Assembly: GCA_016235345.1 (NCBI GenBank)
Contig: JACRLG010000010.1
Coordinates: 1-64,000, forward strand
DNA length: 64,000 nucleotides
Source of the DNA: Deltaproteobacteria bacterium
Lineage (GTDB): Bacteria > Desulfobacterota > Desulfobacteria > Desulfobacterales > Desulfatibacillaceae
Direction of reading: 5' to 3'
Positions 9,507 to 63,210 of the stretch are shown one piece after another. Made by a program: the position numbers and the translations under genes. Below the pieces are notes generated by a model, which saw only the letters and a program-made list of their open reading frames with translations, ran no database searches and had not been told where the DNA came from. The first letter of the stretch is position 1. Each line of letters begins with the position of its first letter.

Positions 9507-9543
9507 ATTAAGCAGAGCATGGTTCTTTTCCTTTTTCATGGAA
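9507..9543 (-). repeat. Copy of a ribosome-binding-site/start segment shared with 25485-25522
   Basis: Read on the minus strand, this matches 25485-25522 in about 33 of 37 positions, including an identical GGAAAAGAACCATGCT. In the second copy that ATG starts a histidine kinase. Here it opens only a seven-codon frame (MLCLIRT), so this looks like a relic of a duplicated gene start. A palindromic element lies about 70-90 bp upstream of both copies. Confidence 0.6.
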
Positions 9544-9631
9544 AGCCCGATGCGGGAAGAAGCGCCCCGGTCTTCCACCTCCACTATTTTCTGTAAAGCG
9601 GAGAATGGAAATAAATTGCGCTCCCGGTAAT

Positions 9632-9758
9632 AACAGGCTGCCCTAAAACGCAAATCGCTTTGTCAGGCGTCACGGAAAAGTTGGTCACGTACAAAAGAGT
9701 ACGCTCCCTCCTTTTCCGCTCGCCTTCCTTGCGCTTCATCGTTTTTCATCAGCCTGTA
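9632..9758 (+). repeat. Palindromic repeat, copy A
   Basis: The ends are near-inverted repeats (AACAGGCTG at one end, CAGCCTGT at the other, each next to an A- or T-rich AAAACG block). The inner arms CGGAAAAG and CTTTTCCG are perfectly complementary. The apex is GTAC-AAAAGA-GTAC. The other full copies start at 33841, 42558, 47895, 60190 and 63085. Confidence 0.85.
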
Positions 9759-9907
9759 TGATTGGAGCTTTTCAACAGGCGGTAAAAATAATGGCCGGTT
9801 TTGATGATTCGGGATGAAACAGAACGAATCGCGCGGAAACCGAAATTGACGAAGGCCGGGGGCCGCCGGTTGAACAGGAAAAGCCCTTACCGGAATTTTG
9901 AGGGATG

Positions 9908-24865: not shown

Positions 24866-25508
24866 ACCCGAAGGCCCACGCTGCTAATACATAAGGCGTG
24901 GACATCAATTAGAGAAGAACCGTCCTGCCCCCCCCTCGCCTGTCCTGCAGTCGTAAAATTTGTTTCCCGCAAGCCCAAAAAATTGTATAATAAGCCAGAT
25001 ACACAAGTCTCCTTTTGAACCACCCGTTTCCCGACAAAGACATTGCCCGGCTTGAAGGGGCTGCCTGAGGCTGTTTTCAGCGCATGCTTCGCCTGTAAAA
25101 GGTCCGGCTCCTCATCAAAACCCCATACACAAGCTGGCGGACAGCCGTTTTGGGCCCGCCGGGGCCAAATGAAGAAAAGCCCCCGAAGCGCCACCATGAA
25201 TGAGCCGGTGACGATGGGGCACTTGACCCGAATATTTCTGGGAGCAGGGTTTAGGGGCTGTTTCCAAAAAAACTTTTACAACCGGTTGCGTCTTCATCCC
25301 TTCCGACTGTGTTGCGCTCCTTGCGGAATAGCTCGCTATTCCTCAGTCACGCGCCTTGTCGGCAGGGCGAATACGCTTGCCTTACGTGTGACAATTTTTT
25401 TTCGGAAACAGCCCCTGATTCCATTTTTCGAACTCCCAAAAACGTTGGAGAAATAGGCTTGTAGTATTTCTCCCCTCGGCCAGATTCCCTTGAAAACGGA
25501 AAAGAACC
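24866..25508. other. Long intergenic region with a large inverted-repeat element
   Basis: No gene is supported. The main object is the 162-bp element at 25254-25415. Part of a duplicated gene-start segment (25485-25522) lies at the right end. The remaining bases (24866-25253) show no coding pattern, promoter or terminator that I can defend. Confidence 0.5.
25254..25415. repeat. Large imperfect palindrome with terminal inverted repeats (MITE-like)
   Basis: The ends are GGGGCTGTTTCC followed by an A-run and, inverted, a T-run followed by CGGAAACAGCCCC. The centre is a hairpin GGAATAGC-TC-GCTATTCC. Interior blocks also pair partly. It encodes nothing. The length and terminal repeats fit a miniature inverted-repeat element; it is the only copy in this window and differs in sequence from the GTAC-apex palindromes. 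Confidence 0.65.
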
Positions 25509-25522
25509 ATGCTCCGCTTAAT
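25485..25522 (+). repeat. Ribosome-binding-site/start segment shared with 9507-9543
   Basis: This segment contains GGAAAAGAACC and the ATG of the histidine kinase. It recurs in inverted orientation at 9507-9543 with about 33 of 37 positions the same. Confidence 0.6.
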
Positions 25523-33719: not shown

Positions 33720-33840
33720 CGTGTTATGGCTCCGGCGCAGCAGTCCACGCCCCCATGATACGCCTTTGTCCTTTATTTTCCTGTATCGCTGGCGCGGGAC
33801 CAGTGCGTCGGTTACTGCTGTCTTTTCAGCACGGCACCGG

Positions 33841-33965
33841 CAGGCCGATCAAAAACGATGAAATGCAAGGATGGCGAGGAGGACGGGAAGGACGCGTACT
33901 AAAAGTACGCGACGCGCCGTCCGACGACGCCTGACACAGCAGTTCGCGTTTTTGGACGGCCTGCC
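33841..33965 (-). repeat. Palindromic repeat, copy B, abutting a stop codon
   Basis: Read on the minus strand it starts at GGCAGGCCGTCC, which overlaps the stop codon of the acyl-CoA dehydrogenase, and continues AAAAACGCGAACTGCTGTGT. The apex is GTAC-TTTTA-GTAC. The other end (ATCGTTTTTGATCGGCCTG) is the inverted counterpart. The inner arms are GC-rich and differ from the other copies, yet still pair. Confidence 0.85.
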
Positions 33966-35113
33966 TAGCAGCCGATGTAGCGTGATATGACTATTCGCTG
34001 TATCTCGGATGTTCCTTCCCCAATCGTAAGCAGCTTCTGATCCCTGTAGAAGCGCTCCACCTTGTATTCCTTCATCAGCCCGTATCCGCCGTGGATCTGG
34101 ACCGCGTGGTCGGCCACCCTGCCCATGACCTCGGAGCAGTAGAGCTTTCCCATGGCGGCCTCCTTCTCAAAGGGGCGGTGGTGGTCTTTCAGCCAGCAGG
34201 CCTTGTAGAGCAGGTTTCTGGCGCACTCGATTTCCATGGCGCAATCACTGAGCTTGAAGGCAACCGCCTGGAACTTGCTGATGGATTGCCCGAACTGGCG
34301 GCGTTTTTTGGCGTAGGAAAGGGCCAGCTCGTAGGCCCCCTGTGCGCCGCCTAAGCCCATCGCGCCTATGGAGAGGCGTCCGCCGTCCAGAGTTTTCAGC
34401 ATCTGGCGGAATCCGTCCCCCTGGTTTCCAAGAAGATTTTCGTAAGGCACACGGCAGTCGTCGAAATAAAGCTCCGCCGTGTTGGAGGCCCGCCACATGA
34501 GCTTCTTGTGCATGGGCTTGGCGGTGAAGCCCTTGGTGCCGTGCTCGACGAGGATACAGGAGTATTCGGGCTTTCCGTCCGGGCGGTGCCCGGTGATGGC
34601 CTGGACCGTGACGCCAAGGCTTATGGGAGAGGCCGCATTGGTGATGAAAATTTTGGATCCGTTGATCACCCACTCGTTTCCGTCGCGCACTGCGGTGGTC
34701 TGGGTTCCGCCAGCGTCGCTTCCCGCAGCAGGCTCGGTGAGGCCAAAGCCCCAGAGGTATTTTCCGGTGGAGAGCTTGGGCAGGTATTTTTTCTTCTGGT
34801 CTTCCGAGCCGAAGTAGTAGATGGGGCCTATTCCCAGTGAGTTGCCGGCAGCCACGGTTGCGGCGTGGGAGCCGTCTATGCGGGCCACCTCCTCCACGGC
34901 GATGGCGTAAGAGATGTAATCCAGCTCCTGTCCGCCGTACTTTTCCGGGACAAACATGCCGAAAAGGCCGATTTCTCCCATGCGCCGGGTGAGTTCCGGT
35001 GAAAACTCCTCGTTTTCGTCCAAATCCAGGATAAGGGGGGCGATTTCCTTTTCCGCGAAATTGCGCACCGCATCCCGGATCATCTCCTGCTCTTTGTTAA
35101 GATCAAAATCCAA
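33965..35113 (-). CDS. Acyl-CoA dehydrogenase
   Basis: The start is a TTG at 35113 (382 aa), clearly marked by AAGGAGGCGGAT. The product is a complete FAD-dependent acyl-CoA dehydrogenase: FGLTEPAAGSDAGGTQTTA for flavin and substrate contacts, and ITNAASPISLGVTVQA. The C-terminal QIHGGYGLMKEYKVERFYRD is present, and the catalytic Glu lies in GEGTSEIQRIVI. It oxidises acyl-CoA to enoyl-CoA in beta-oxidation or branched-chain/aromatic degradation and passes electrons to ETF. No ETF or hydratase genes are adjacent. The chain-length preference cannot be told. Confidence 0.95.
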   Translation of the reverse strand: MDFDLNKEQEMIRDAVRNFAEKEIAPLILDLDENEEFSPELTRRMGEIGLFGMFVPEKYGGQELDYISYAIAVEEVARIDGSHAATVAAGNSLGIGPIYYFGSEDQKKKYLPKLSTGKYLWGFGLTEPAAGSDAGGTQTTAVRDGNEWVINGSKIFITNAASPISLGVTVQAITGHRPDGKPEYSCILVEHGTKGFTAKPMHKKLMWRASNTAELYFDDCRVPYENLLGNQGDGFRQMLKTLDGGRLSIGAMGLGGAQGAYELALSYAKKRRQFGQSISKFQAVAFKLSDCAMEIECARNLLYKACWLKDHHRPFEKEAAMGKLYCSEVMGRVADHAVQIHGGYGLMKEYKVERFYRDQKLLTIGEGTSEIQRIVISRYIGC

Positions 35114-42453: not shown

Positions 42454-42557
42454 TGATGGATTCGTAAAAAAAATGCAGCCAAGGGGGCTTGGGTGCATAA
42501 GGCTCAAGACAGGCCGCTCCTTTCCTGAGGGGGTCATCGCTCCCCTTTCCCGTTCAT

Positions 42558-42687
42558 AACAGGCTGTCGAAAAACGCGATCCGGCAGTGTTCTGCTTTAA
42601 AGCCAATTCCGTCACGTACATTAAGTACGCTTGACTCATTGGCTTTTCGCACCGCCTTCACGGCTCATCGTTTTTCATCAGCCTGTA
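42558..42687 (+). repeat. Palindromic repeat, copy C
   Basis: It starts AACAGGCTGTCGAAAAACG and ends ATCGTTTTTCATCAGCCTGT, which are inverted counterparts. The inner arms AAAGCCAATT and ATTGGCTTTT pair perfectly, and the apex is GTAC-ATTAA-GTAC. No gene end adjoins it. Confidence 0.88.
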
Positions 42688-47894: not shown

Positions 47895-48000
47895 AGCCTG
47901 GATAAAACGATAAAAGGGGAAGCACGAGCCGGAGGGGTAAAGGAGTACCTGTTCCCTCCCGGCTCGCGCCTGATACAGCAGTTCGCGTTTGGACGGCCTT
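47895..48000 (-). repeat. Palindromic repeat, copy F (degenerate), abutting a stop codon
   Basis: On the minus strand it begins two bases after the acyl-CoA ligase stop codon: AAGGCCGTCCAAACGCGAAC, then TGCTGTATCAGGC as in copies B and E. The inner arms GCGAGCCGG and CCGGCTCGTGC pair. The apex is altered (GGTACTCC instead of paired GTAC blocks). Confidence 0.75.
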
Positions 48001-48002
48001 CG

Positions 48003-49664
48003 TTACGGCTGGTAGATGTCCTTGTACTGCTCCCTTATGACCTTCTTGTCGAACTTGCCCACGCTGGTCTTGGGAACTGCGTCCACGAAAAGCACCGCTT
48101 CGGGAAGCTGCCACTTGGCGAATTTTTTCGCAAGGTGTGCGATGATGTCTTCCTTCGTTACGGTGTCCTTGTGTTCGGGACGCGCCACAACGAGGGCTAT
48201 AGGCCGCTCCTCCCACTTGGGATGCGCCACTCCCGTCACAGACGCCTCCAGCACAGCCGGGTGGGCCATGATTTCGTTTTCCATGTCAACGGATGATATC
48301 CACTCGCCGCCGCTCTTGATGAGGTCTTTCACCCGGTCGGTGATCTTAACGTAGCCTTCGGCGTCCATGGTCCCGGCGTCGCCGCTCTTCCAGTAGCCGT
48401 TTTCCGTGAACTGTGCCTCGCTTCCGGGGGCGTTGTAATAGCTTCCCGTGATCCAGGGTCCACGAATGAGTATCTCCCCGGGGCTCTTGCCGTCCTGGGG
48501 AACCCGGTTGCCGACGCCGTCCACCACCTTCACGTCAAGGCCCACCACCGGGTAGCCCTGCTTGCGCTTGAGGTCGAGCTGCTCCTCGGCGGTAAGCTCC
48601 TTGGCCTGCCAGGGTTTCAGACGGTTGATGGTGACGATGGGCGATGTCTCGGTGGCGCCGTAGGCGTGGTAGAAGGTGGCTCCGGTGAGTTCCATGAAGC
48701 CCTTCATGAGGGTAAGCGAAGGTTCGGTCGCCCCTGAAAGGAAGCGCGCGGTGGAAAGGTTCGGTTTCACGTCGAGTTTCTTGATGTACTCCAGCATGGG
48801 CATGAAGAGCGCCGGAGCGCCCGCCGCCACGGTGACTCCCTCGGAGACCAGGGGCTCGGCGAGGCTCCCCAGGTCCATGATGTTGTACATTCCGGGCAGG
48901 ACGTATTTTGCGCCCATCATCACAGCCGCGTGGGGAGTGCCCCAGCCCATTGCGTGGAACATGGGCACGAGCTGGTAGAAGCAGTCGTCGCTGTTCAGCT
49001 GGCTTGCGGCGGAAATGGCCATGCCGTGCAGATAGATGTCACGGTGGGAGTAATAGACCCCCTTGGGGCGGCCTGTGGTGCCTGTGGTGTAGCAGGCGGC
49101 GGCGGCGCTCGTCTCGTCCATAACCGGCCACTTGATGTCTTCGCCCGCCTCGGCCAGAAGCTCCTCGTATCCGTAGAGGGGGGCCAGGGTGGTGCTGATT
49201 TCCGAAGCCTTCTTGTCGCTCATCATCACGAAGGCCTTCACGTTGGGACAGTCGGCGGCTATGGCCTGGACCAGTGGATAGAGGGTGTCTGAAACGAAGA
49301 TGACGGACGCGCCCGAATGGTTCACCACGTAGCCCAAGTCAACCGGGGAGAGCCGCAGGTTAAGGAGCAGGAGAACCGCGCCCACTCCGGGGATGGCGTA
49401 GTAGCTCTCGAAGTGCCGGTGGGTGTTCCAGTCCATTACGCCCACGCGGTCGCCTGGCTTTACGCCCAGTTTTTTGAGCGCGTTGCCCAGTTTTTTTATG
49501 CGGGTGTAGGAGTCCTTGAATGAAAAGCGCAGCTTGCCCGCAGGGGTTACGGAAACGATCTCCTGCCTTCCGAAGGATACGACCGCCTGCCGGAAGATGT
49601 TGATGACGTTCAGTTGATAATCGTTCTGGGACGTGGAGGGAAAACCTTGGATGATGTCGGCCAT
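48003..49664 (-). CDS. Long/medium-chain fatty acyl-CoA ligase (AMP-binding)
   Basis: The ATG at 49664 (553 aa) has AAGGAGC upstream. It is a full adenylate-forming enzyme: P-loop YTTGTTGRPKGVYYSHRD, YGATETSPIV, adenylation contact and hinge SGDAGTMDAEGYVKITDR, and the C-terminal Lys in PKTSVGKFDKKVIREQY. It activates a fatty or related acid with ATP and CoA. It is most like the medium/long-chain group of FadD-type ligases. The same operator-like palindrome as in the phasin promoter lies upstream, which suggests shared control of acyl-CoA supply and PHA. Confidence 0.93.
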   Translation of the reverse strand: MADIIQGFPSTSQNDYQLNVINIFRQAVVSFGRQEIVSVTPAGKLRFSFKDSYTRIKKLGNALKKLGVKPGDRVGVMDWNTHRHFESYYAIPGVGAVLLLLNLRLSPVDLGYVVNHSGASVIFVSDTLYPLVQAIAADCPNVKAFVMMSDKKASEISTTLAPLYGYEELLAEAGEDIKWPVMDETSAAAACYTTGTTGRPKGVYYSHRDIYLHGMAISAASQLNSDDCFYQLVPMFHAMGWGTPHAAVMMGAKYVLPGMYNIMDLGSLAEPLVSEGVTVAAGAPALFMPMLEYIKKLDVKPNLSTARFLSGATEPSLTLMKGFMELTGATFYHAYGATETSPIVTINRLKPWQAKELTAEEQLDLKRKQGYPVVGLDVKVVDGVGNRVPQDGKSPGEILIRGPWITGSYYNAPGSEAQFTENGYWKSGDAGTMDAEGYVKITDRVKDLIKSGGEWISSVDMENEIMAHPAVLEASVTGVAHPKWEERPIALVVARPEHKDTVTKEDIIAHLAKKFAKWQLPEAVLFVDAVPKTSVGKFDKKVIREQYKDIYQP

Positions 49665-59799: not shown

Positions 59800-60150
59800 T
59801 CAGGCCGAGGGAGTGGCCAGGGCCGCGATTTTGGCGAATCCTGCGGGATCGCTTATGGCGAGCTCGGCCAGAACCTTGCGGTCCAGTTCCACGTCGGCGT
59901 TTTTGAGCCCATTGATGAAGCGGCTGTAGGAAAGGCCGTTCATGCGGACCGCCGCGTTGATGCGGGCTATCCACAGCGTACGGAAATCGCGCTTCTTCAG
60001 GCGGCGGTCGCGGTACGCGTAGGAAAGGGCCTTGTCAACGGCGTCGGAAGCCGTGCGGATGAGGCGTCCACGGCCAAGATGGAAGCCCTTGGCCAGCTTG
60101 AGTACCTTCTTGCGGCGATGAAGCGCCTTGAAACCACGTTTGATGCGCAT
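59800..60150 (-). CDS. rplT: 50S ribosomal protein L20
   Basis: The ATG at 60150 gives 116 residues starting [20 protein letters not shown]. The basic N-terminal tail and the conserved [20 protein letters not shown] and [20 protein letters not shown] are typical of L20. It binds 23S rRNA early in 50S assembly. It often represses the infC-rpmI-rplT operon through its leader or the rpmI region. A palindromic repeat separates it from rpmI here. Confidence 0.97.
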
Positions 60151-60189
60151 TGAACACTCCTTTGGCAACTTTACGAAAAGGCTGCAAGT

Positions 60190-60309
60190 GAAGGCTGACG
60201 AAAAACGATGAACACGGAACCAAAAACCAATGAGCAAGCGTACTAAATGTACGTGGCGGAATTGGCTTTGACGCGCGACAAAGCAGTTCGCGTTTTTCGA
60301 CGGCCTGTT
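60190..60309 (-). repeat. Palindromic repeat, copy D, inside the rpmI-rplT gap
   Basis: On the minus strand it opens TAACAGGCCGTCGAAAAACG, so the TAA stop codon of rpmI is part of the element. The apex is GTAC-ATTTA-GTAC. The inner arms AAAGCCAATT and CATTGGTTTTT nearly pair, close to copy C. It lies between rpmI and rplT, so both would be read through it on one transcript. Confidence 0.85.
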
Positions 60310-60505
60310 ACATATAGGGCAGAAGGCGGCGTATTGCCTTCATGTTGGTTTTGTCGATCACGTTCAGCTTACGAAGGCTGCGCTTCCTCTTACGGGTCTT
60401 GGTGACCAGGATGTGTCCTCCGAAGGCCTTGGAATAGAGGACTTTTCCCGTGCCGGTCTTCTTGAAACGCTTGGCTGCGGACCGGTTGGACTTTAATTTC
60501 GGCAT
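60308..60505 (-). CDS. rpmI: 50S ribosomal protein L35
   Basis: The ATG at 60505 (65 aa) starts [20 protein letters not shown], and the family motif [11 protein letters not shown] is present. It lies between infC and rplT as in most bacteria. The stop codon is embedded in palindromic repeat copy D. Confidence 0.96.
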
Positions 60506-60661
60506 TTCTTTTCTCCCAGGCGCAATTGATACCCGCCCATGCATGGTTTTGATTTAGCCGGAAAACGGACCTTGTGAATATCCCTCTTCCGGCTTGGGGC
60601 ATATGTAAAAAGGCTTTTTAACCGATAATCTCATGCCTTCAATGGCATACAGACACTGAAA

Positions 60662-60710
60662 CCCGCAAGACATAGCCTTGCGGGCGACGAAAAAACCGGC
60701 AAGAGCCGTT
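60662..60710 (-). promoter_or_regulatory. Leader hairpins between infC and rpmI
   Basis: Two hairpins follow infC on the minus strand: first CGGC-TCTT-GCCG (60697-60708), directly followed by a T-run (GGTTTTTTCG), then CTTGCGGG/CCCGCAAG (60662-60684 in plus coordinates) with a 7-nt loop. The first may end or attenuate transcription, the second may be a translational site such as an L20 target. I cannot show which. Confidence 0.55.
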
Positions 60711-60774
60711 TCGTTTTTTCACGCCACTCGTTTAGTCCTACCCCCTGCCTACGGCAAAGGTGGCTTTACGCGGA

Positions 60775-61284
60775 TCACTTGGGAGCCAGGATCATCACCA
60801 GGGTGCGGCCCTCGAATCGCGGGGCCTGCTCGATGACGGCCATTTCCTCGATGGCCTTCTGGACCTTCAGGAGCATCTGCATTCCCCTTTCGGAGAAGGC
60901 GATCTCGCGGCCCCGGAACATGACGGTAACCTTGACCTTGTCGCGGTCCTCGGTGAGGAACCGCTTGATGTGCGTGATCTTGGTTTCCAGGTCGTGGTCG
61001 CCGGTCTTGGGCCGGACCTTGATCTCCTTGACGGTGAAAGTGGCCGCCTTCTTCTTGGCCTCCTGGAGCTTCTTGGTCTGCTGGTACTTGTACTTCCCGT
61101 AGTCCATGATCTTGCAGACCGGAGGCTTGGCCGTGGGCGACACCTCCACCAGATCGAGCCCTGCTGCGTCCGCAATGGCCTGGGCCTGATGGATGGGCAG
61201 AACTCCCAATTGCCCTCCCTCGGCGTCGATAAGGCGGACTTCCCTCGCCTTGATCATCTTGTTGATGTTGACCCGCTTCTCTAT
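60775..61284 (-). CDS. infC: Translation initiation factor IF-3, probable AUA start
   Basis: IF-3 homologues begin x-x-x-x-NINxxIRxxEVR. The conserved NIN is encoded upstream of the first ATG (61257). The coding frame extends back to an ATA at 61282-61284, seven bases after a perfect AAGGAGGT (61291-61298). The extended product (169 aa) reads EKRVNINKMIKAREVRLID after the initiator. Both IF-3 domains are complete (GLDLVEVSPTAKPPVCKIMD, RFLTEDRDKVKVTVMFRGRE, KAIEEMAVIEQAPRFEGRTL). infC uses a rare start in other bacteria (AUU in E. coli) so that IF-3 can repress itself. The rpmI and rplT genes follow. Confidence 0.93.
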   Translation of the reverse strand: MEKRVNINKMIKAREVRLIDAEGGQLGVLPIHQAQAIADAAGLDLVEVSPTAKPPVCKIMDYGKYKYQQTKKLQEAKKKAATFTVKEIKVRPKTGDHDLETKITHIKRFLTEDRDKVKVTVMFRGREIAFSERGMQMLLKVQKAIEEMAVIEQAPRFEGRTLVMILAPK

Positions 61285-62310: not shown

Positions 62311-63084
62311 ATGCGCACACGTCATCTTGCTGTATTGGCCTTTTTTTCGCTGGCCATGGCGCTCACGATTTTCATAGTCATTCCAAAGGCCCCCGCCAAA
62401 GAGCTTTCCGCCCAGGAAATACTGGATTACGTGGACGACCTTTACCGGGGAAAATCCTCCCAGGGCAGGATGACCATGACAATAGTGACGGCCCAGTGGA
62501 AAAGAAGCCTTTCCATCGAGTTCTGGGCCAAGGGCAAGGAAAACTCCCTGATGCGCATAACGGCCCCCGCCAAGGAAAAGGGCACCGCAACCTTGCGTGT
62601 GGGAAACGACATGTACAACTACCTCCCCAAGGTCAAGCGCACCATAAAACTGCCGTCCTCCATGATGAGCGCATCCTGGATGGGCTCGCATTTCACCAAC
62701 GACGATCTGGTGAAGGAAAGCCGCTTTACGGACGACTTCACCTTTAAAATCACGGGCCGCAGCACCGAGGGCGGAGCCCCCGTAGCCGAGATCACCTGCA
62801 TCCCCAAGCCGGACGCGGCTGTGGTCTGGGGCAAGGTTGTGGTTTACGCCAGGATCAGCGACTACATTCCCCTGCGAAGCCTTTATTACGACGAGGACGG
62901 CAAGCTCGCCCGCACCATGGCCTTTTCCGAACTGGGCAAGACCGGCGACCGGATGATCCCCAAGGTTCTCACAATAACCCCCCAGGACAAGCCCAAGGAA
63001 ATGACCGTGGTGCGCTACGACGACATCCGTTACGACGTGAAACTTGCGGATGATCTGTTCTCCCTGCGAACCTTGGAGAAATAA
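62311..63084 (+). CDS. LolA-like outer-membrane lipoprotein-sorting protein
   Basis: The ATG at 62311 (257 aa) has GGGAGAG upstream. A signal peptide (residues 5-27, HLAVLAFFSLAMALTIFIVI) precedes a LolA-like half-barrel domain: DDLYRGKSSQGRMTMTIVTA, WAKGKENSLMRITAPAKEKG, DMYNYLPKVKRTIKLPSSMM. These LolA-like proteins often accompany RND or ABC exporters that move lipids or lipoproteins. The next gene is an ABC permease in the same direction, 163 bp downstream. A copy of the palindromic repeat begins at the base after its stop codon. Confidence 0.88.
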   Translation: MRTRHLAVLAFFSLAMALTIFIVIPKAPAKELSAQEILDYVDDLYRGKSSQGRMTMTIVTAQWKRSLSIEFWAKGKENSLMRITAPAKEKGTATLRVGNDMYNYLPKVKRTIKLPSSMMSASWMGSHFTNDDLVKESRFTDDFTFKITGRSTEGGAPVAEITCIPKPDAAVVWGKVVVYARISDYIPLRSLYYDEDGKLARTMAFSELGKTGDRMIPKVLTITPQDKPKEMTVVRYDDIRYDVKLADDLFSLRTLEK

Positions 63085-63210
63085 GCGCCTGTCTAAAAAC
63101 GCGAACTGCTGTGTCAGGCATCACCAAAAAGTCGGTCACGTACAAAAGAGTACGCTCCCTCCTTTTGGGCTCGCCAACCTTAGCATTTCATCGTTTTTTT
63201 CCAGGCTTTG
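63085..63210 (+). repeat. Palindromic repeat, copy E, abutting a stop codon
   Basis: It starts immediately after the TAA of the LolA-like gene with GCGCCTGTCTAAAAACGCG and AACTGCTGTGTCAGGC. The inner arms CCAAAAAG and CCTTTTGGG pair, and the apex is GTAC-AAAAGA-GTAC as in copy A. The far end carries CATCGTTTTTTTCCAGGC. Confidence 0.85.

Follow-up and report, generated by a model that had tools for sequence, protein, structure and literature searches.

A dispersed ERIC-like hairpin element that frequently abuts stop codons in Deltaproteobacteria

Copies of the element in the window

The window, i.e., the whole stretch of 64,000 nucleotides analysed here (positions 1 to 64,000 of contig JACRLG010000010.1, Deltaproteobacteria bacterium, assembly GCA_016235345.1, a genome referred to below as G000), contains five intact copies (A, B, C, E, and F) and one decayed copy (D) of a palindromic element (Table 1). 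The intact copies are matched by R1, a covariance model of 127 positions built from an alignment of 33 copies from three genomes, at E-values between 1.4e-19 and 1.9e-37. Copies B, D, E, and F abut stop codons; A and C do not. An earlier note on this DNA had counted six full copies; all six sites are real, but D is decayed rather than full. At the site of D, R1 gives only a 44-base match on the opposite strand (E 0.44), and the best local score of D against any of 106 other copies is 317 (maximum of 30 shuffles, 175); it is a real copy, though too decayed for R1. The GTAC apices that the note described in five copies were confirmed and belong to A, B, C, E, and F. The middle arms are, as it stated, self-complementary in each copy, but two arm pairs had been assigned to the wrong copies: CCAAAAAG/CTTTTGG belongs to F instead of E, and GCGAGCCGG/CCGGCTCGTGC belongs to D instead of F. 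Neither the stop-codon placement nor the resemblance to ERIC was noticed in the note. A search of the window with Rfam gave no match at the gathering score, and a permissive search of copy B and four distant loci gave three weak, unrelated matches.

Table 1. Copies of the element and adjoining genes in the window
Feature	Coordinates	Strand	Basis	Context
Copy A	9631..9757	+	R1, 108 bits	Intergenic, away from stop codon; right-hand repeat tail follows at about 9758-9784
Copy B	33840..33966	-	R1, 139 bits, E 1.9e-37	Left end overlaps TAG stop codon (33965-33967) of acyl-CoA dehydrogenase gene
Acyl-CoA dehydrogenase family gene	33965..35113	-	Pfam	Upstream of copy B
Copy C	42557..42686	+	R1, 103.1 bits	Intergenic, away from stop codon
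Copy D (decayed)	about 47895..48002	-	Local alignment; no R1 match as copy	Starts a few bases past TAA stop codon (48003-48005) of AMP-binding enzyme gene
AMP-binding enzyme gene	48003-49664	-	Pfam	Upstream of copy D
rplT, ribosomal protein L20	59800..60150	-	Pfam PF00453	Downstream of copy E
Copy E	60190..60310	-	R1, 76.2 bits	Between rpmI and rplT; starts with TAA stop codon (60308-60310) of rpmI
rpmI, ribosomal protein L35	60308..60505	-	Pfam PF01632	Upstream of copy E
infC, initiation factor IF-3	60775..61257	-	Pfam PF00707 and PF05198	Upstream of rpmI
LolA-like gene	62356-63084	+	Pfam	Upstream of copy F
Copy F	63082..63209	+	R1, 105 bits	Starts with TAA stop codon (63082-63084) of LolA-like gene

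The infC-rpmI-rplT operon is controlled by L20 in other bacteria, and copy E splits an operon of this type (59800-61257) between its second and third genes. The window also holds another dispersed inverted pair (9507-9561 and 25468-25522, 80% complementary), which may represent a second repeat family; a close match to it, GGAAAAGAACCATGCTCCGCTTAAT, lies beside an element near C28:149414 (C2 and C28 are contigs of G000; G- and L-numbers denote genomes and loci). A different long hairpin, CCTGGGAGCGCGGGCGTCCCGCC..., is found at G000 gene ends (L095:19127-19194 and C28 near 373385), and a hairpin-like repeat, GTTGGGTG..., near C28:192711 and C28:303388.

Anatomy of the element

From its left end, the element consists of positions 1-3, which are often a stop codon, followed by an outer stem of about 16-18 bp. 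Inward of this stem are a junction (CGCGA / TCATCG) and a 6-bp step with one mismatch, then a second junction (GTGTC or GCGTT / CCTT), a 4-bp step, and a short junction (TC / CTCG); innermost are a variable stem of 5-12 bp, GTCA / GCTCC, and the apex CGTAC-N4-GTACG. A unit of about 127 bp that forms a single long hairpin is seen both in the copies folded and in the model. Well-kept copies continue for ~30 nt past the right arm and terminate with the outer arm repeated once more in inverted form, TTTTTCAACAGGCTGTTA; with this right-hand repeat included, the intact unit is about 160 nt long and has inverted ends. TA is often found at the left end and TTA past well-kept right repeats (by eye), and the flank upstream of the element carries no conserved motif. 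In many more-distant genomes, the left end reads TTGACGGCTTCGTAAAAAG and the layout is the same.

Some copies have an extra 40-nt hairpin in the apex and others are 61-nt deletion forms. The apex cassette reads AGCCCAAGAACTCTGCGATTTCTTGGG (e.g., L085:12498-12665, L068:6678-6843, and others), and it resembles the internal insertions known from ERIC and YPAL. Small size, terminal inverted repeats, and many dispersed copies are the features of a MITE.

Family size and spread

Copies are dispersed across the genome and many relatives, and the possibility that they occur only in this window, which the earlier note had raised against itself, can be set aside. In G000, 150 of 2222 R1 candidates were scored, every one of which passed, with E-values no worse than 5.3e-22. 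Within the 829,182 bases formed by C28, C2, and the window, about a fifth of G000, 157 matches correspond to 119 distinct sites once the same sites on the opposite strand are removed, although at least two of these (C2:279127 and C2:301509) resemble other hairpins matched by structure. There is thus about one site per 7 kb, and the whole of G000 would hold near 575 copies if this density were even. In the counts below, the set of 118 copies omits one copy shorter than 55 nt, and the sets of 106, 95, and 91 are copies of given lengths.

Counting the own genome in each case, the element is present in seven of nine genomes at the family level (E 1e-6), in 88 of 194 at the order level (1e-8, with stricter filters and at most 17 candidates scored per genome), and in 111 of 297 at the phylum level (1e-6, at most 11 scored per genome). 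Copy number varies: there are at least 142 copies in G006 and two in G005. From 232 matches in relatives, 186 were kept (171 of G001), with opposite-strand repeats and cut-off and short forms omitted. A strict pattern run over the genomes of named species found 118 stretches, namely 108 in the MAG Deltaproteobacteria WY2.bin34, nine in OS_PC_MetaG.mb.90, and one in a MAG labelled Woesearchaeota; the named carriers are Deltaproteobacteria and 'Proteobacteria' MAGs.

Two further locations deserve mention. A contig binned as Woesearchaeota (L141) has two copies among ORFs that look bacterial by eye, and it is probably misbinned. Another copy (L220:4165-4292) is found in the viral contig IMGVR_UViG_3300005145_000110 among ORFs that look phage-like by eye, and phages may carry the element.

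Placement at stop codons

Genes were called by a simple codon model, which is not a standard gene finder. By these calls, 88 of the 118 G000 copies follow a gene of the same orientation, the gene upstream of another 29 runs the opposite way, and one copy is inside a predicted gene. Relative to the left end, the nearest sense stop codon is at -15..+5 for 76 of the 118 copies; for 63 it is at -6..+2, and for 33 it coincides exactly with positions 1-3. When positions were drawn at random in intergenic DNA (300 placements), the corresponding means were 4.2, 1.8, and 0.2, and the maxima 11, 7, and 2. The right end behaves differently with respect to antisense stops, with one of 118 within -15..+5 and ten at +15..+45, where the intact tail would end. 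Stop codons used at copies (n=63) comprise 23 TAA, 20 TAG, and 20 TGA, and those of 666 genes comprise 161, 134, and 371, respectively. The 20 TGA stops lack TA; thus, TA targeting alone cannot explain the exact placement.

The same register is found outside G000. Among 171 copies of G001, from loci chosen for holding an element, an open frame of at least 90 codons ends within -15..+5 of the left end in 116 and exactly in 50, as compared with 19 and one, respectively, when the right end is examined on the opposite strand. For the 40 copies taken from 33 other genomes, stop placement was found 23 times vs. four for the control. At these distant copies, 16 of the 23 stops occupy -4 or -15 and so belong to the end of the element, and therefore the element may itself supply the stop there; element ends offer an in-frame TAA or TGA. 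An origin of the right arm as inverted host coding sequence was considered but dropped, as the arms of the '-15' class look alike across genes (by eye). In the sampled contigs, 289 gene ends have at least 100 nt downstream, and 81 of them, about a quarter, carry an element at the stop (within -18..+20 of it); gene ends with an element elsewhere in the gap were placed in neither group.

Covariation and the pairing of arms

Pairing was analysed in a structure-blind alignment of 55 copies (eight from G000, five from G001, two from G007, and 40 from 33 other genomes). Both sides vary in 29 of 34 pairs, and the covariation score is 0.491, as compared with 0.139 for shuffles and at most 0.126 for slid structures. 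Standard pairs occupy 95.2% of 1851 cells (shuffled, 75.2%; slid, 32-46%), so the middle arms of further copies are complementary, as the earlier note had required of its hairpin. Its statement that compensatory change reveals a structure that is kept holds as far as the covariation is concerned, which is real and strong, but selection is not the sole possible cause, given how scarce G-U pairs are. In 95 copies of G000 they account for 48 of 3528 standard pairs (1.4%), and in 167 copies of G001 for 113 of 6464 (1.7%); the proportion is higher in the 40 copies from other genomes (72/1640, 4.4%), and five tRNAs from the same contigs, a small control, gave 7/104. Such scarcity suggests that copying between arms at the DNA level may contribute.

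Template switching has been described as a one-step, DNA-level correction of palindrome arms and stems (in the text available of PMC8794818). In 303 close pairs of G000 copies, double Watson-Crick changes number 899, steps between Watson-Crick and G-U pairs 141, and steps to a mismatch 1134. The low G-U content and the excess of double changes fit template switching as well as selection. Modules also reassort: the inner module is shared and the outer arms differ in nine of 4095 copy pairs, and the reverse is seen in ten. Selection on structure, arm-to-arm template switching, and internal gene conversion can all contribute, and they have no firm ranking. Copies at stops and those elsewhere are paired about equally well (mismatch, 9.7% vs. 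12.8%; G-U, 1.3% vs. 1.4%), which does not point to extra selection at stops.

Mobility and age

Presence and absence at orthologous gene ends in genomes of the same genus demonstrate the mobility expected of a MITE. For 23 gene ends that have an element in G001 (22) or G007 (one) and an ortholog on the G000 contigs, the element is also present in G000 at nine and absent at 14. Together with the 127-nt palindrome and the outer inverted repeats, this bears out the earlier note's assignment to a MITE-type family. Protein ends were compared at ten sites that are empty in G000, where the proteins are 65% or more identical and the stop of the counterpart gene is touched by an element: eight proteins end at the same residue, one differs by one residue, and one by nine. 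Three of the ten empty sites (C28:137342, C28:372698, and C28:44735) hold remnants (by eye), which means that some absence is loss; without them, six of seven proteins end alike. The elements thus come and go beside stops that look native, at least between G000 and G001 or G007. Alignment of the empty sites is too loose to show a TA duplication.

The state of the right-hand repeat offers a proxy for age. Copies with the best-kept repeat are at stops in seven of 26 cases, and the most decayed in 24 of 27 (p 7e-7); we take this trend to mean that copies insert widely and are then retained at stops. Support from a second age proxy is weak and no more than suggestive (p 0.08), and the tail score may reflect subfamily instead of age.

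Likeness to ERIC and to other repeats

The element and ERIC are both intergenic, 127 bp long, and folded as a single long hairpin. Both also have a 5-bp apex stem with a 4-nt loop, TCAC and GCTC flanks, and a CCTTCC..GCA junction (by eye). TA stands at the ends of ERIC and, by eye, often at the left end of this element, and neither has a mover shown (for ERIC, in the sections available of PMC2229807, which add target duplications and, among bacterial MITEs, relate only RUP to an IS). Copy numbers of ERIC range from 30 to 711 per genome (available text of PMC10969869).

Loci with seven real ERICs from six genera (12.2 kb in all) were searched with R1 with filters off. The Rahnella ERIC is the best match, covered over its full length on the right strand (E 0.0007); the remaining ERICs have E-values of 0.044, 0.16, 0.32, 1.5, 2.0, and 3.7 and ranks 2, 4, 5, 11, 12, and 14 of 27, and the best non-ERIC match in the same loci has an E-value of 0.095. 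With default filters, R1 missed the E. coli ERIC, and nhmmer with five profiles found two of the seven (3.0 and 3.5 bits), with one profile only. In a decoy test with 15 copies per set and 60 decoys that keep each ERIC's pairs and composition, six of the seven ERICs beat all decoys against the distant set and against G001, and three of seven did so against G000; reverse strands scored lower. A comparison with dinucleotide shuffles was also favourable, but it used top-scoring copies, and the decoy test was relied on instead.

Homology to ERIC therefore seems likely from these comparisons, though it is not proven. A minority possibility to be taken seriously is that two unrelated hairpins with similar junctions have converged, which concerns origin only and is compatible with the functional reading given below. 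The weak E-values of single ERICs (0.0007 to 3.7), the nhmmer failure and the default-filter miss, and the distance between phyla all speak for convergence. However, all seven ERIC sites were recovered among 27 matches on the right strand, four end to end and three in part, and this, the decoy results in two of three sets, and the same length class and apex layout argue against it.

Differences from ERIC are also evident. The outer stems of the present element are far more variable, its end sequences are unrelated, and it has an extra right-hand repeat. Its left end stands in stop-codon register, which is not reported for ERIC in the portions available of PMC2229807 and PMC10969869. ERIC is known from Enterobacteriaceae and Vibrionaceae (the same portions of PMC10969869), whereas this element is found in another phylum, in Deltaproteobacteria and 'Proteobacteria' MAGs; because of its hosts, we call it an ERIC-like MITE, a variant of the ERIC type, and not ERIC itself.

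Some REP/BIME sequences lie near stop codons, and they are, like this element, extragenic palindromes. REPs are 20-40 bp long, have an unpaired GTAG or CGTC tag at one end, and often form dimers (available text of PMC3733652); this element is 127 nt long, lacks either tag, and does not form REP-type dimers. RUP, NEMIS/Correia, YPAL/RU-2, and others are small and have terminal inverted repeats, mostly TA ends, and transcribed hairpins (PMC2229807, as available); compared by description only, this element is likewise a small MITE with terminal inverted repeats. RUP differs in its proposed IS630 partner. For the multicopy sequences of Geobacter metallireducens, class 4 of which is built on CCYTC repeats (accessible text of PMC2700814), no link to the element was made. 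attC sites were considered as a further possible likeness, given the hairpin that follows a stop codon. In its main text, as far as available, a survey of bacterial stem-loop families lists ERIC in E. coli, Vibrio, and Yersinia and names no Desulfo- or Geobacter genome (PMC2267715). The titles and abstract openings listed from the open literature, a weak basis because most subscription papers, the main ERIC papers among them, are outside this scope, yielded no report of this family, of ERIC relatives in Deltaproteobacteria, or of repeats in register with stop codons.

Function and alternative explanations

On balance, it seems probable that the element is an ERIC-like MITE of which those copies are preferentially retained that form a hairpin in the 3' UTR next to a stop codon, with a putative function there. 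A transposase acting in trans would move the element, perhaps into TA, and copies would tend to persist where the hairpin adjoins a stop and opens the transcribed 3' UTR; the right-hand terminal repeat, which serves movement alone, would then decay. The hairpin might act on the mRNA by protecting or processing its 3' end, being opened or closed by the terminating ribosome, and would not be a terminator; its paired arms would be kept alike by selection, by DNA-level copying from arm to arm, or by both. Given that copy E separates rplT from the preceding genes infC and rpmI, it is very likely to be transcribed through. A role in mRNA is left as our best guess, in keeping with Yersinia, in which ERIC affects mRNA via an RNase E site (available text of PMC10969869) and, at gene 3' ends, ribosomes are held to open that site (PMC2229807 and PMC10969869, as available).

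A rather unlikely alternative is a plain MITE with no host role: template switching and gene conversion among copies would keep its arms complementary, and insertion chemistry or element-borne stops would account for its exact placement. In its favour, G-U pairs are scarce and outnumbered, as steps, by double changes; a one-step correction of stems has been described (PMC8794818, text as available); modules are exchanged between copies in the way expected of internal gene conversion; and the element's ends can provide a stop in frame. However, arm copying should erase the asymmetric unpaired junctions, which are conserved. Moreover, eight of ten protein ends are unchanged beside the element, i.e., the stops look native in these two genomes, and the best-kept right repeats are mostly away from stops, which speaks against targeted insertion.

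It is very improbable that the element is an intrinsic transcription terminator spread by copying. Its position at gene 3' ends in the sense orientation would suit a terminator, as would several of the other empty orthologous sites, which carry an apparent ordinary terminator instead (GC hairpin and T-run, by eye). However, the hairpin is directly followed by a T-run at one of the 81 gene ends at -8 kcal/mol and at four at -6, and copy E separates rpmI from rplT. Classical terminators downstream were found at 13 of the 81 ends with an element (13 of 58 among those with at least 60 bases left to search) and at 62 of 208 without, proportions that are not clearly different.

Least probable of all is a long REP moved by a RAYT (a single-strand Y1 transposase), the other type that the earlier note had suggested: the element is an extragenic hairpin in high copy number, and G000 has one Y1 match, but its size and tag are not those of a REP, no copy was found near that match or in 14 other Y1 loci, G001 gave no Y1 match (at 83% completeness, a miss is possible), and G005 has 21 Y1 matches and two elements, i.e., Y1 number does not follow element number.

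Search for a mover

The transposase search covered the Y1 and DDE_3 families. The 16 Y1 loci searched contain two matches to the element, both in L225 of G006 (2557-2818), where two adjacent copies lie ~700 bases from a Y1 transposase gene. This one loose linkage could favour a RAYT; it is either chance in a many-copy genome or a lead. An IS630-type (DDE_3) gene is present in one of nine genomes, and its locus holds no copy. RAYT and IS630 were rejected as movers on the Y1 loci, the rarity of DDE_3, and the DDE_3 locus lacking a copy.

A strict scan for arms in the 829 kb, which misses most arms, gave 27 matches and no transposon-like pair; five of the 27 are outside elements, and four of those five are tails of known copies. 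Arm pairs in G077 (L297 and L298) were considered as an autonomous element, and each proved to consist of separate full elements. An arm pair in G011 (L299) flanks an ORF that looks CoA-transferase-like by eye and contains no full element; ORFs were listed for L297 and L299 only. No mover was identified by the Y1 and DDE_3 searches or by the arm scans.

Implications

A bolder proposal, possible but doubtful at present, is that ERIC is one branch of an ancient mobile-hairpin superfamily spanning at least two phyla, which in Deltaproteobacteria serves as a portable 3'-UTR module. Set in register with the stop codon, the outer stem would be covered by the terminating ribosome, and about a quarter of long gene ends (81/289) would thereby gain a translation-gated mRNA end. 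More generally, the family would give ERIC, described in 1990-91 and with its mover not known, relatives in another phylum, and the element would be a mobile element that stands in stop-codon register dozens of times in the sampled fifth of a genome. Whether compensatory change is caused by selection or by template switching is a question raised in PMC8794818 (in the text available). With many paralogous hairpins per genome in more than 100 genomes, this family would provide a data set for separating RNA-level selection from DNA template switching.
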